Shown in pieces: positions 4,541-52,486 of a stretch of 64,000 bases of DNA. Position numbers and translations under genes: made by a program. The stretch spans positions 186,001 to 250,000 of the forward strand of contig JAJTFA010000001.1 of assembly GCA_021299635.1 (NCBI GenBank), given 5' to 3'. Origin of the DNA: Sphingobacteriales bacterium (GTDB taxonomy: Bacteria > Bacteroidota > Bacteroidia > UKL13-3). Every line of letters starts with the position of its first letter. The first letter of the stretch is position 1. A model generated the notes under the pieces. That model did not search any database and was not told the origin of the DNA. It saw only the letters and a list, made by a program, of their open reading frames with translations.

Positions 4541-5403
4541 AATTTATGAAATTCGTTGTCTTTGATAAGTTTTGCGGAAAAGCCATCCTTGAGTTTAAGC
4601 GAGATGTCTTTCTTTTCTATGTATAAGCTTATTGAATATGGTTTATCTAAACCATACAGCACTAATTTCTTCCCATTAAAACTATATCCTTTAAAGTTCA
4701 CAGGTGATTTCCAAAATTCAACCAATACAGGATTATCTGAATGCAACTTACCTTGAGAGATTCTTGAGTAGGTAAGATTGGTAATACTATCGTTGTTCAT
4801 TGAATCTGCCCTGCTCTTTACAACCTTGAAGCGCAGCTCATACACTTCTTTTTCTATAGGGGCCAGAAAAGTATCGTGCAACAATATATCAGCTTTCAAC
4901 TTATTGTTTGGAATTGTTTTTTTATCTTTAGTATTAGTAGATACAGATGCAGTTTTATGGTCGTAACTAAGCAACGCATCTTCTAGCTCTATGTCTTCAG
5001 GTTGGGTAATGATGCTACTTGACTGCGATTCATTATTTGGCTTGTTGCCAAATACAGGCAGCTTATCCCATAACTTTCGCTCTTTCTGCTTATAATGTTT
5101 TTCCAGAGATTCGTTTGATAACTTGAGCTTTTCGTTGTTGATGTAATAATTAATAGTAAGGGCAAGACCTGTAACTGAAATTAGTAAATACATTGCAGAA
5201 AGAAGTTTGTTATTTAATGAAGTTTCTTCGCTAACACCAACTGAATTTTTCAATTGAGCCGCTCTATTCTTTTTATATTCATTAAAAGCACTTCTGAGGT
5301 TGGCATCCTCTGACAATTTTTCCACGAAACTATTTTTATCCGATTCAGACAGTTCGTCTCTCAGATACTTTTCAAAATAATATTGATGCTTGTCGTGGCC
5401 CAT
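4537..5403 (-). CDS. Uncharacterised single-pass membrane protein upstream of dapF
   Basis: 288 residues that I do not recognise. The N-terminal ~60 residues are charged and helical (HQYYFEKYLRDELSESDK), resembling the small N-terminal domain of Bacteroidota anti-sigma-like proteins but without zinc-ligand cysteines. One membrane segment lies at about 68-88 (SAMYLLISVTGLALTINYY). A helical Lys/Glu-rich stretch follows, and a beta-rich C-terminal domain likely faces the periplasm. Its stop overlaps the dapF start by 4 bp, so the two are coupled in translation. Nothing in the sequence ties it to lysine synthesis. A role as a sensor or scaffold would be a guess. Confidence 0.8.
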   Translation of the reverse strand: MGHDKHQYYFEKYLRDELSESDKNSFVEKLSEDANLRSAFNEYKKNRAAQLKNSVGVSEETSLNNKLLSAMYLLISVTGLALTINYYINNEKLKLSNESLEKHYKQKERKLWDKLPVFGNKPNNESQSSSIITQPEDIELEDALLSYDHKTASVSTNTKDKKTIPNNKLKADILLHDTFLAPIEKEVYELRFKVVKSRADSMNNDSITNLTYSRISQGKLHSDNPVLVEFWKSPVNFKGYSFNGKKLVLYGLDKPYSISLYIEKKDISLKLKDGFSAKLIKDNEFHKF

Positions 5404-5537
5404 GTAATCAACAAATTTGCAGTATTTTTTCTAATCTACACAATTCAAGACCTTCTTTTTTCGTTTGGAGTTGCAATATAAATCACATTGGCTTGGAACA
5501 ATTTTTGCCAATAATTCAAAAAAATTCGAGAAAAAGT

Positions 5538-7010
5538 ATGTTGAAACGGTACATTACATTTTTTGCTGTTGCGGCTCTGGGTGGCCTAACAGCACTAGGA
5601 ATCAGCAAATTATTCTCCGATTCGCAAGGAACGGTATTGCAGCAAGAAAGAATGGCACGATTTGCCGGCTTGAGTGAGTCCTCTACACGCCCGGATTTTG
5701 TAGAAGTAGCTGATTTAGTGACACCTACGGTTGTTCACATCATTACCCAAGTGGAGTCTCAACAAGTTGAAAGTCAGCGAGAAATAAATCCTTTTGACTT
5801 TTTTCATGGTCCCGGTTTTAGGTTTGAGATGCCGGAGTCAGGCCCACGCTCAGGTTCCGGTTCAGGAGTGATTATCAGTCAGGATGGTTATGTGGTAACC
5901 AATAATCACGTAATCGAAGGGGCCAGTAAAATCAAGGTTATTTTAAATGATAAGCGCCAATACGATGCAGATTTAATAGGCAGAGACCCTAATACAGATC
6001 TAGCCCTTCTTAGAATAGATGAAAAGAACCTTCCATACGCATTGGTTGGCAATTCTGACGATGTAAAAGTTGGGCAGTGGGTGCTTGCAGTTGGAAATCC
6101 TTTTAATCTCACCTCAACTGTTACCGCAGGTATTGTAAGCGCAAAGGGCCGAAACTTAAATTTGTTAAAAGACCCTAGAAGAGCGGAAACTCAATATTCC
6201 ATTGAATCTTTTATTCAAACAGACGCAGCGGTTAACCCTGGCAATAGCGGAGGCGCTTTGGTAAGTTCAGATGGTAAGCTGGTTGGTATTAACACAGCTA
6301 TTGCTTCTCAAACGGGTGCATATTCAGGCTACTCCTTTGCAGTCCCATCAAACCTTATGAAAAAAATTATTGAAGATCTTTTAAAATATGGCGAAGTACA
6401 GCGCGGATTTTTAGGCGTACAGATTGCGGATGTGAATGCTGAATTGGCAGATAAAGAAGGTTTAAAAGAAGTGAGAGGGGTGTTTATTGCAAAAGTTAAC
6501 CCAAATAGTGCTGCTGAAGACGCAGGATTAAAGGATAAAGATGTTATTTTGAGTATTGATGATGTAAAAGTAAACTCTTCCTCAGAGTTGCAGGAACAAG
6601 TTGGAAAACGCAATCCGGGAGATAAGTTAAAACTTATAGTTTCAAGGGATAGTAAGGAAAAAATATTTTTTGTAACACTTAAAAGCAGGGATGGTAAAAC
6701 AACTTTAGATGTGGAAGAGAAAAAAGATTTTAACAAGGTACTTGATGCCGAGTTTGAATCAATCAGCAGAGATGAGCGTTTGAAGTTGAAGATATCAGGT
6801 GGTGTTAAGGTGAAAAAAGTGGGTTCAAATAGTATTTTGAAAAAAGCCGGAATACCAGATGGCTTTGTTCTAACCGCTATTGATAAAACACCAATAAATA
6901 CCACAATAGAGGTTAAAAAGTTATTGGAAGACAAAAAGGGCGGTGTATTGATTGAGGGTATTAATCCCGATGGCTCCCGCGGATATTACGGATTTGGGAT
7001 AGAGAAGTAG
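5538..7010 (+). CDS. HtrA/DegP-type periplasmic serine protease with two PDZ domains
   Basis: A Do-family (S1C) protease and chaperone for misfolded envelope proteins; 490 residues from the ATG at 5538. An in-frame TTG at 5493 would add 15 residues ahead of the signal anchor and is less likely. The signal anchor spans residues ~5-22. The catalytic triad is complete: H124 in VVTNNHVIEG, D154 in PNTDLALLRI and S237 in NPGNSGGALV. PDZ1 covers about 285-375. A shorter, divergent PDZ2 runs from about 405 to the end. The gene is convergent with methylmalonyl-CoA epimerase and the two stop codons abut without a spacer. Confidence 0.95.
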   Translation: MLKRYITFFAVAALGGLTALGISKLFSDSQGTVLQQERMARFAGLSESSTRPDFVEVADLVTPTVVHIITQVESQQVESQREINPFDFFHGPGFRFEMPESGPRSGSGSGVIISQDGYVVTNNHVIEGASKIKVILNDKRQYDADLIGRDPNTDLALLRIDEKNLPYALVGNSDDVKVGQWVLAVGNPFNLTSTVTAGIVSAKGRNLNLLKDPRRAETQYSIESFIQTDAAVNPGNSGGALVSSDGKLVGINTAIASQTGAYSGYSFAVPSNLMKKIIEDLLKYGEVQRGFLGVQIADVNAELADKEGLKEVRGVFIAKVNPNSAAEDAGLKDKDVILSIDDVKVNSSSELQEQVGKRNPGDKLKLIVSRDSKEKIFFVTLKSRDGKTTLDVEEKKDFNKVLDAEFESISRDERLKLKISGGVKVKKVGSNSILKKAGIPDGFVLTAIDKTPINTTIEVKKLLEDKKGGVLIEGINPDGSRGYYGFGIEK

Positions 7011-47392: not shown

Positions 47393-47431
47393 ACAACGCC
47401 CCGTGCAAATTTGCACGGGGCGTTGTTTTTT
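47393..47431 (+). terminator. Strong intrinsic terminator after the T9SS protein gene
   Basis: A perfect 34-base palindrome (17-bp GC-rich stem, left arm 47393-47409, right arm 47410-47426) is followed by a run of T to 47431. It starts 20 bp after the stop. This is the strongest terminator in the window, and its right arm contains the -33 element of the ftcD promoter. Confidence 0.9.
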
Positions 47432-47440
47432 GTACTTTCG
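47410..47440 (+). promoter_or_regulatory. Bacteroidota-type promoter for ftcD, overlapping a terminator
   Basis: TTTG at 47410-47413, a 19-bp spacer, then TACTTTCG at 47433-47440 (one base off TAnnTTTG). The -7 box ends 21 bp before the ftcD ATG. The -33 element and spacer lie in the 3' arm and U-run of the preceding terminator. Confidence 0.55.
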
Positions 47441-47461
47441 CAGACATTAATTCTACTATAC

Positions 47462-49153
47462 ATGAATACAAATGCATTAATTGAATGCGTACCCAATTTT
47501 AGTGAAGGTGCTGACCATAATATTATTCGTCAGATTACAGATGTTATTGAAGGGGTAGAAGGAGTGATGCTCCTGGATGTAGATCCGGGTAAAGCAACCA
47601 ACAGAACAGTGGTTACGTTTGTAGGCCATCCGGAAGTAGTAATTGAAGCAGCCTTTCGTGCCATTAAAAAAGCTGCCGAAGTTATTGATATGAGGAAGCA
47701 TAAAGGTGAGCACCCAAGAATGGGTGCCACAGATGTGTGTCCGCTCATTCCCGTATCAGGAATAAGCATGGAGGAAACTGCTGCTTATGCGCAAAAGCTT
47801 GCAGCAAGGGTTGGAGCTGAATTAGATATACCTGTTTATTTATATGAGTATGCCCAATCCATTGGGGCACGTAAGAATTTATCTGTTATTCGTGCCGGTG
47901 AGTACGAAGGTTTTTTCGATAAAATAAAACTGCCTGAATGGAAACCTGATTTTGGCCCGGCTGTGATGAATGAAAGAGCAGGATCAACTGTTATAGGCGC
48001 CAGAGATTTTTTAATTGCATACAATGTAAACCTCAATACAAAATCGGTACGTTTAGCTAATTCAGTTGCGTTTGATGTGAGAGAAGCAGGACGTGTAAAG
48101 CGAGAGGGAAACCCTGTAACAGGAAAAGTAATAAAGGATGCACAAGGAAATGATGTACGTATACCAGGAACATTAAAAGCGGTAAAAGCAATAGGATGGT
48201 TTATAGAGGAGTACAATATTGCGCAGATTTCAATGAATTTAACCAACTATAAAATTACTTCCGTGCATCAGGCTTTCGATGAGGTTTGTAAAAGTGCCGA
48301 CAGACGTGGGCTGCGCGTAACAGGCAGTGAGTTGGTTGGACTCATTCCTTTAGATGCAATGCTTGATGCAGGCAGACATTATTTAATAAAACAAAATCGT
48401 TCAATTGGTGTAAGTGAGTCTGATTTGATACATATAGCAGTTAAATCTATGGGACTAGATGAACTAGCTCCATTTGATCCTTCAAAGAAGATCATAGAAT
48501 ACAAGCTTAAAGATGTGGCACAAGAAAAACTCATTGGCATGAACTTACGTTCATTTGCCGATGAAACAGCCTCTGAAAGCCCTGCACCAGGTGGCGGTTC
48601 CATTAGCGCCTATGTTGGTGCACTTGGATCAGCACTTGGAACCATGGTGGCCAACCTATCTGCCGGAAAACGTGGTTGGGAAGAACATATTGCTTTCTTT
48701 AGCGATATGGCATATCAGGGCCAGCAGCTTAAGGATACTCTTTTAAAACTGGTTGATGAGGATACAGCTGCATTCAATGAAATTATGAAAGCTTTTGCAT
48801 TGCCTAAAAATACGGATGAAGAGAAAAAGGTTCGTGCCGAAGCGATTGAGACGGCAACCAAATATGCTTGTGAAGTGCCACTGCGTGTAATGAAAACTGC
48901 ATATGCATCGCTGGATATGTTGGGTGCAATGATTGAGAAGGGGAATCCCAATTCTATTACGGATGCAGGTGTTGGTGCGCTTTGTGTTAAAACAGCCGTT
49001 CGAGGTGCGTATTTTAATGTGCTGGTAAACGCCAAAGGGTTAAAGGATAAAGGCTATGCTGAGCTGATTGTAACAGAGGCCAAAAACATATTGGCAGAGA
49101 ACCATAGTAAAGCAGATGCAATGCTTAAGATGGTTGAAGCAGCATTGGTTTAA
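47462..49153 (+). CDS. ftcD: Glutamate formimidoyltransferase / formimidoyltetrahydrofolate cyclodeaminase
   Basis: 563 residues from the ATG at 47462 (MNTNALIECVPNFSEG). The formiminotransferase half (1-~325) has VMLLDVDPGKATNRTVVTFV, KHKGEHPRMGATDVCPLIPV and TVIGARDFLIAYNVNLNT. The cyclodeaminase half (~365-563) begins FADETASESPAPGGGSISAY and has TDAGVGALCVKTAVRGAYFN. It moves the formimino group of histidine breakdown to tetrahydrofolate. Both activities are fused, as in mammals. No other hut gene is nearby. Its stop abuts the stop of the convergent gene. Confidence 0.95.
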   Translation: MNTNALIECVPNFSEGADHNIIRQITDVIEGVEGVMLLDVDPGKATNRTVVTFVGHPEVVIEAAFRAIKKAAEVIDMRKHKGEHPRMGATDVCPLIPVSGISMEETAAYAQKLAARVGAELDIPVYLYEYAQSIGARKNLSVIRAGEYEGFFDKIKLPEWKPDFGPAVMNERAGSTVIGARDFLIAYNVNLNTKSVRLANSVAFDVREAGRVKREGNPVTGKVIKDAQGNDVRIPGTLKAVKAIGWFIEEYNIAQISMNLTNYKITSVHQAFDEVCKSADRRGLRVTGSELVGLIPLDAMLDAGRHYLIKQNRSIGVSESDLIHIAVKSMGLDELAPFDPSKKIIEYKLKDVAQEKLIGMNLRSFADETASESPAPGGGSISAYVGALGSALGTMVANLSAGKRGWEEHIAFFSDMAYQGQQLKDTLLKLVDEDTAAFNEIMKAFALPKNTDEEKKVRAEAIETATKYACEVPLRVMKTAYASLDMLGAMIEKGNPNSITDAGVGALCVKTAVRGAYFNVLVNAKGLKDKGYAELIVTEAKNILAENHSKADAMLKMVEAALV

Positions 49154-50600: not shown

Positions 50601-51506
50601 TTATTTTCCCATCAGCTCGTCCAAGGCATTATCAAGTGAGGGGTACTGAAAATTGAATCCGGTTTGCTCAATCTTTTTTGAATCAATATACTGGTTAGCA
50701 ATTAGCATTGAAGCCATTTCTCCGAAAATTATTTTCATGGCAAATGTTGGTACCGGAGGAAGTAAGATAGGCCTGTGAAGCCTTTTAGCCATTGCATTGG
50801 TAATGGTTTTGTTGCTTTCAGGATGGGGAGCTACCCCATTGTATATGCCACGCATCTGTTCGTCAAAAACTGCCTTGATAAACATCCCTGCTAAGTCATG
50901 AATATGAATCCAGCTGATATACTGATTGCCACTGCCTAAAGCAGCACCTGCATAAAATTTGATTGGCTTAGCCACCTGAGGTATAAAACCTCCTTCTTTG
51001 GCCAGCACCACCCCAATGCGAATAATAGTGGTTCGCAAACCAATGGATTCTGCATGCAAAGCTTCGGATTCCCAATCTTTACATACCTTGGCCAGAAATG
51101 TATCCGATGCAGGTGCATTTTCACCGGTAGGATAAGGGCAGTTATTTCCGTAAATACCTATTGCTGATGCTGATATAAAGGTTTGTACCTGGTTAGGTGT
51201 ATGCTTAAGGGTATTAACCAATAGCCGAGTGGAAAGAATGCGGCTGTCATATATTTCTTGTTTGTAAGCTTTGCTCCAAGCTTTATCTGCAACCCCTGCC
51301 CCGGCTAAGTGTATTATGGCTTGAACACCTTGCAAAGCAGTTGTGTCTATTTCCTGCCTAGCCAGATCCCATTTGTAGCAGGTTAATCCATTGAACTTAC
51401 CAGATTTACGTCCTAGCAAAACCACCTCATTCCCAGACTTAACAAGCTCATTTGCAATATGTTTACCTACAAGTCCGGTGCCACCGGTTATCATTATTTT
51501 GCTCAT
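50601..51506 (-). CDS. TIGR01777/SDR39U1-like NAD(P)-binding epimerase family protein
   Basis: 301 residues. It has the nucleotide-binding loop MITGGTGLVGKHIANELVKS, ITHLAGA-like AIIHLAGAGVADKAWSKAYK, DSRILSTRLLVNTLKH, SASAIGIYGNN (Ser, Tyr) and the C-terminal DUF1731-like LPPVPTFAMKIIFGEMASML. The family (YfcH in E. coli) has no proven substrate. It is divergent from the CarH-like regulator gene with a 77-bp shared region, so it is the first candidate target of that regulator. Confidence 0.92.
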   Translation of the reverse strand: MSKIMITGGTGLVGKHIANELVKSGNEVVLLGRKSGKFNGLTCYKWDLARQEIDTTALQGVQAIIHLAGAGVADKAWSKAYKQEIYDSRILSTRLLVNTLKHTPNQVQTFISASAIGIYGNNCPYPTGENAPASDTFLAKVCKDWESEALHAESIGLRTTIIRIGVVLAKEGGFIPQVAKPIKFYAGAALGSGNQYISWIHIHDLAGMFIKAVFDEQMRGIYNGVAPHPESNKTITNAMAKRLHRPILLPPVPTFAMKIIFGEMASMLIANQYIDSKKIEQTGFNFQYPSLDNALDELMGK

Positions 51507-51549
51507 TACCTACTTAAAATCAGTTCTTAAAAAACAAAAAGTGGTCATA

Positions 51550-51557
51550 TATGTTTG
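51550..51557 (+). promoter_or_regulatory. Possible -7 box for the CarH-like gene
   Basis: TATGTTTG matches TAnnTTTG and ends 26 bp before the TTG start at 51584. No TTTG lies at N19, which might fit a regulated promoter. Confidence 0.4.
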
Positions 51558-51583: not shown

Positions 51584-52486
51584 TTGGGGATTTTCTCTAT
51601 TAAAGACATTGAAGCGGTTTCGGGAATAAAGAGTCACACCCTGCGCATTTGGGAACAGCGCTATGGTATTATACAGCCTAAACGTACCGAAACCAATATC
51701 AGATATTATGATGATGCTGACTTAAAATACATCATTAATATTAGTATTTTAAATAAACACGGATATAAAATCTCCGAAATAGCCAAAATGAGTATGGACG
51801 AGGTGAGAGAGGCTATTATTAAATTTTCAGGCAGAAATACAACGCATGATAGCCATATTAAAGGCCTTATTGCCTCTATGCTCTCATTTGATGAGTATCA
51901 GTTTCATAAAGTTCTTACCACTGCTATTATTCAGATGGGTCTGGAGAAAACCATGCTCAATATTGTGATTCCATTTTTGCATGAGGTTGGGATATTATGG
52001 CAAATTGGTTCAATTCATCCTTCACACGAACACTTTGCATCAAATATTATTAAACAAAAGTTGTTTGTTGCGATAGATGGACAGGTTGGAAAATTTTCTG
52101 AAAACAGAAAGAAGTTCTTACTTTTTCTACCGGAACGTGAACAGCATTCTATTGGTTTGTTATATGCAAATTATCTGCTTCGTTCGCGTGGTCAAGATGT
52201 TTTATTCCTAGGGCAGGAAGTACCGCTAGTAGATTTAAAAGATGCATGCGAAGGAAGAGCTGTAGATTATATTTTTACCATCCTAACGGCAGCCCATATT
52301 GATATTGATAAGCAAAAGTTTGTTGATACCCTTTGTGAATTTTGGCCTAACTCACAAATTTTCTTAACAGGTATACAGTTCAATAACTGTGAATTGAATT
52401 ATCCTTCAAATGTTCGTGTCATCAGGAAAATGGATGAATTCATTCAGTTTGTTGATAGCCTTAGCGCAAACTTTAACCATAATTAA
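51584..52486 (+). CDS. MerR-type regulator with B12-binding light-sensor domain (CarH-like)
   Basis: 300 residues from a TTG with AGGAGG upstream. The N-terminal MerR HTH spans 1-75 (FSIKDIEAVSGIKSHTLRIW, EQRYGI). A helical B12-capping domain (~95-165) holds W139 followed by nine residues and E149-H150 (LWQIGSIHPSHEHFAS), the W-x9-EH signature of CarH photoreceptors. The Rossmann B12 domain has E186-Q-H188-SI-G191 for the cobalt-ligand His. The later SxL and GG motifs are changed to TIL (233-235) and TG (262-263). CarH-type proteins repress in the dark with adenosylcobalamin and release DNA in light. Whether this one still binds B12 needs a test. Confidence 0.85.
   Translation: MGIFSIKDIEAVSGIKSHTLRIWEQRYGIIQPKRTETNIRYYDDADLKYIINISILNKHGYKISEIAKMSMDEVREAIIKFSGRNTTHDSHIKGLIASMLSFDEYQFHKVLTTAIIQMGLEKTMLNIVIPFLHEVGILWQIGSIHPSHEHFASNIIKQKLFVAIDGQVGKFSENRKKFLLFLPEREQHSIGLLYANYLLRSRGQDVLFLGQEVPLVDLKDACEGRAVDYIFTILTAAHIDIDKQKFVDTLCEFWPNSQIFLTGIQFNNCELNYPSNVRVIRKMDEFIQFVDSLSANFNHN

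Follow-up and report, generated by a model that had tools for sequence, protein, structure and literature searches.

Does a regulator that resembles the photoreceptor CarH, but in which several residues of the Thermus protein (TtCarH) are replaced, still read light through vitamin B12, and which genes would it control? Most work on CarH concerns Thermus, Bacillus and myxobacteria, and our literature searches found no characterised member from Bacteroidota. Here, we analysed such a gene in the genome of a freshwater Bacteroidota bacterium, within a window (the whole stretch of DNA analysed) of 64,000 nucleotides. We consider that its product is probably a repressor that responds to light through adenosylcobalamin (AdoCbl), a Bacteroidota lineage form of the class-I LitR/CarH regulators, which would act through a palindrome on photo-repair genes. 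The features of the locus are given in Table 1.

Table 1. Features of the regulator locus, in window coordinates.
Feature	Position	Strand	Basis
TIGR01777 family SDR/epimerase (Epimerase + DUF1731), predicted co-regulated partner	50601..51506	-	Divergent neighbour
Inverted repeat AAACA-N15-TGTTT, predicted operator	51532..51556		Divergent promoter conservation, matrix scan
CarH-like MerR/cobalamin-binding-domain regulator, 300 aa, TTG start	51584..52486	+	ORF, Pfam, AlphaFold2, PDB matches
N-terminal MerR winged-helix DNA-binding domain, residues 4-69, recognition helix HTLRIWEQRYG	51593..51790	+	Pfam MerR_1
Four-helix-bundle B12 cap (W139, Q140, E149, H150)	51860..52087	+	Pfam B12-binding_2, TtCarH alignment
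Rossmann B12-binding subdomain	52112..52468	+	TtCarH alignment; predicted alpha/beta elements, residues 177-295

Translation of the open reading frame confirms its limits, its strand and the motifs previously claimed for it. The frame is a real gene, since its TTG start is kept in 41 of the 42 close homologues (the remaining one has GTG) and its dN/dS relative to a same-genus relative is around 0.016, with saturated dS. The regulator is thus under strong purifying selection, and the conserved TTG suggests selection for weak translation. Pfam recognises the MerR DNA-binding domain of class I LitR/CarH proteins (MerR_1, E = 6.6e-14) and the helix-bundle domain B12-binding_2 (E = 2.8e-10, residues 93-160); PF02310 was not detected by the Pfam scan in the regulator and was detected in 59 of 87 homologues. 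The closest solved relatives in a PDB search are the TtCarH structures (2.3e-20, about 28% identity). The AlphaFold2 model has a mean pLDDT of 87.7, and its top structural matches are all TtCarH chains. When isolated, the cobalamin-binding domain (CBD) of the model matches that of TtCarH with a TM (target) of 0.78-0.80, showing both the helix bundle and the Rossmann fold. Over the full length the rmsd is high, presumably reflecting a flexible link between the two domains.

The initial annotation described the protein as a CarH-like B12 light sensor whose altered Rossmann motifs might change B12 binding. The light-sensor reading is likely, judging from the predicted fold, the invariant ligand and cap residues and an adenosyltransferase encoded in the genome that would form AdoCbl. 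The W139-x9-E149-H150 motif of class I LitR/CarH is present as claimed (W139 codon at 51998-52000), and so is ExHxxG, as E186-Q-H188-S-I-G191, in which H188 (codon at 52145-52147) is the predicted lower ligand of cobalt. In an alignment of 123 sequences (121 locus homologues, one Persicobacter plasmid and one Comamonas plasmid sequence), W139, E149, H150 and H188 are jointly kept in all but one. That exception, on plasmid pPP1 of Persicobacter psychrovividus (5001-5864), keeps the tryptophan but replaces E149, H150 and H188 by T, D and E, respectively; from its sequence it is likely a B12-independent derivative, analogous to CarA. Within an alignment of 87 members, W139, E149, H150, E186, H188 and G210 are invariant, as are T19, R21, W23, E24 and R26 of the MerR domain. 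The Rossmann subdomain also carries G210-x3-P214. Light-responsive CBDs have been given a signature of four elements, GxxW, EH, GxxH and GxxxP (PMC11796333), three of which are present here as GILW, EH and GQEVP; the third element in order reads REQH, with Arg185 in place of Gly.

The later motifs do read T232-I-L (232-234) and T262-G263 instead of the literal SxT/V ... GG, and for this reason we call the protein CarH-like and not CarH. The SxL to which the first of them had been compared is not found in TtCarH, which itself has S-A-V there. Moreover, these are conservative changes found across the lineage: T232 occurs in 95 of 123 aligned sequences, G263 in 121 of 123 (usually preceded by S, T or A), and the homologues linked to crtI-crtB equally carry substitutions of the TIL/TG type. 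They are therefore a lineage feature and do not point to an unusual B12 pocket in this protein. We rejected them as a peculiarity of this regulator, and the suggestion of changed B12 binding is not supported.

Upstream lies a divergent gene for a short-chain dehydrogenase (SDR) scoring 310 bits with TIGR01777 (cut-off 207). It is kept in this position in most same-family relatives, and in many relatives a photolyase follows it. The remark that no carotenoid gene stands beside the regulator is correct within 7 kb. Yet it is misleading for the genome, where crtI, crtB, crtD and IDI genes lie in trans on contig C7, and we rejected an absence of carotenoid genes at that level. The products encoded there (L032:7944-15016), namely CrtB, CrtID, CrtD and a CruF-like protein, correspond to an acyclic carotenoid pathway of the CrtI/CrtD/CruF-like type. 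The genome also encodes three photolyase-family proteins, as well as a PduO-type adenosyltransferase and other B12 proteins, so that AdoCbl should be available. Homologues of the regulator occur in 87 of the 117 genomes searched around the source genome. In Algoriphagus, Pontibacter, Rufibacter and others the homologue immediately precedes an ECF sigma-crtI-crtB operon, which ties the lineage to light protection. At the Cytophagales loci (L103, L106, L136 and similar ones), where the gene after the homologue encodes an ECF sigma factor and crtI and crtB come next, CarH-like and CarQ-like elements share one operon. Elsewhere in the window, a 580-aa open reading frame (47411-49153) resembles by eye a fused glutamate formimidoyltransferase/formimidoyl-THF cyclodeaminase.

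Between the regulator and the dehydrogenase gene lie 77 bp, which contain the inverted repeat AAACA-N15-TGTTT; this repeat is also the best alignment-conserved block of the gap. Among the carH/SDR promoters of 42 close relatives (>50% identity), 36 have the exact repeat with a spacer of 15 or 16. When spacers from 5 to 26 were scanned, enrichment appeared at 15 and 16 only, and the reversed repeat pattern showed none in these 42 promoters. A scoring matrix built from relatives of other genera ranked this repeat first of the 63,970 window positions scanned, with a score of 17.8, the next being 12.2.

We then searched for the element elsewhere by pattern searches and in selected stretches of genomes. 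The longer form AAAACAW-N13-ATGTTT has two exact sites in the 2.3 Mb genome: the carH/SDR divergent promoter and a second divergent promoter on contig C10 (element at C10:99800-99824), between a gene for a 516-aa photolyase/cryptochrome (PF03441/PF00875), phr2, and a DUF2805/TIGR03643 gene (region L168:4260-6105). Among the phr2 orthologues of relatives, 14 of 16 promoters contain AAACA-N15-TGTTT, and the reversed control gave 0 at that spacing. One relative, G032, has the element at phr2 and no match to carH in a genome 87% complete. The crtI promoters of relatives have it exactly in 3 of 18 cases and within one mismatch in 8 of 18, such exact or near-exact copies lying 44-68 bp upstream of the gene. 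The crtI promoter of the source genome itself has a weak site with two mismatches, whose score is reached at 27 of the 63,970 positions of the window. No exact AAACA-N15-TGTTT was found at the other two photolyases of the genome. Before the ECF sigma-crtI genes linked to Cytophagales homologues, we rejected a fixed-spacing repeat: good-looking cases were few, their spacing was scattered and the control was similar. Over the whole genome, the plain AAACA-N15-TGTTT is found 5 times, against 6 for the reversed control. The bare 10-base pattern is thus not enriched; the evidence for the element is its position and its conservation.

In TtCarH, His132 is the upper ligand of the bis-His light state. 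Its equivalent in the alignment, the residue following W139, is Gln140, and hence this regulator cannot adopt the bis-His light state known from TtCarH. Of the 123 aligned sequences, 95 have Gln at this position, and apart from TtCarH just two have His. Might the protein then depend on B12 but not on light, sensing AdoCbl availability or redox with a CarH fold whose photoswitch, for want of the bis-His partner, no longer works? The H132A variant of TtCarH is reported to remain mostly tetrameric when illuminated, although an earlier report had found dissociation (PMC10442372), and given this conflict the loss of the His could impair the known mechanism. Tetramer formation is itself uncertain, since the Arg176-Asp201 salt-bridge pair of the TtCarH dimer interface is replaced by Q187/E212 and the interface residue Gly160 is lost; Gly192 is kept as G203. 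Yet the adenosyl-capping W139, E149 and H150 are invariant, the linked genes are photolyases and carotenoid genes, and proteins with another residue at the His132 site respond to light, namely CtMerR (Arg) and the photocobilins SasPcob (Gln) and AbDPcob (Tyr) (PMC11796333). We thus regard a light-independent regulator as improbable. Less probable still is a protein that, like CarA, has kept the fold and lost B12 sensing altogether. The missing PF02310 match and the TIL/TG motifs would fit such a protein, and the Persicobacter homologue indicates that this kind of loss occurs nearby. But the regulator has kept every ligand and cap residue for B12, including the Trp that CarA lacks (PMC9304148), and the low dN/dS and the adenosyltransferase in the genome also argue for a protein that still uses B12.

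The other doubt concerns the palindrome, which might be the site of another regulator, with the CarH-like protein acting at other places. The CarH operators that have been characterised consist of 11-bp direct repeats in tandem, with TnnACA as their core (PMC8156234, PMC9304148). None in tandem was found in the 42 upstream regions, and we rejected a Thermus-type direct-repeat operator upstream of the regulator. Still, we think it unlikely that the palindrome serves another protein. Throughout a whole family it lies between the regulator and its divergent partner, a locus with no further regulator gene beside it, and it is seen again at the promoters of light-repair genes and of crtI. Its half-site, (T/A)AAACA, is similar to the TnnACA core, but in inverted order.

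An AdoCbl-dependent repressor acting through the palindrome would work as follows. In the dark, the helix bundle and the Rossmann subdomain would hold AdoCbl between them, W139, E149 and H150 of the bundle covering the adenosyl group and H188 of the Rossmann part binding the cobalt. The protein would then sit as an oligomer on the palindrome, repressing rather than activating its own gene and the TIGR01777 dehydrogenase, and also on the matching element between the photolyase/cryptochrome and DUF2805 genes. Light would break the Co-C bond and release adenosine, the protein would leave the DNA, and photo-repair, the dehydrogenase and the regulator itself would be switched on. In some relatives crtI might be regulated as well, and possibly also in this genome, by way of the degenerate site there. 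This protein is not CarH sensu stricto, as it scores 96.7 bits with the CarH equivalog model NF052513, whose cut-off is 400. Since the bis-His residue, the interface pair, the direct-repeat operator and the literal SxT/V ... GG are all absent, we file it as CarH-like within the wider LitR/CarH kind.

One might speculate further that a whole branch of AdoCbl photoreceptors across the Bacteroidota does without the bis-His ligand, uses a palindromic operator and governs a single light regulon of photo-repair, TIGR01777 dehydrogenase and carotenoid genes; we put this forward tentatively, at somewhat less than even chances. A branch lacking the bis-His residue is a natural test of the need for that ligand in light-driven release, on which the H132A results disagree. 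If true, a palindromic operator would yield a green-light switch that is compact and differs in its geometry. Through the predicted regulon, sunlit freshwater bacteria would couple the sensing of light by B12 to the photo-repair of their DNA.

Among known systems, TtCarH (class I LitR; PDB 5C8D/E/F) is the top fold match and shares with the regulator the MerR DNA-binding domain, the four-helix bundle, the Rossmann CBD, Wx9EH, ExHxxG with the cobalt-ligand His and GxxxP. Its gene likewise adjoins a photolyase gene, plus one for phytoene synthase. The regulator differs, beyond the low identity of about 28%, by its Gln for His132, by TIL/TG for SAV/GG, by the loss of the Arg176/Asp201 pair and Gly160, by an inverted repeat instead of three direct repeats and by its TIGR01777 SDR neighbour. 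CtMerR (8JBS/8JBT), SasPcob and AbDPcob are also CBDs without a His132 equivalent, light-responsive in those proteins, and SasPcob has the same Gln (PMC11796333); yet CtMerR has another DNA-binding domain, and the photocobilins have bilin-binding domains that are absent in the regulator. The class II LitR proteins PplR and PmlR of Pseudomonas, also of the MerR superfamily, control photolyase, cryptochrome and short-chain dehydrogenase genes (PMC9758184), but they lack the Rossmann B12 subdomain and need a LOV partner, whereas the regulator has a full CBD. Finally, CarA of Myxococcus xanthus has the same architecture, and inverted repeats were once proposed in its operator (PMC9304148). It acts without B12 and lacks the Trp of Wx9EH, which the regulator has.
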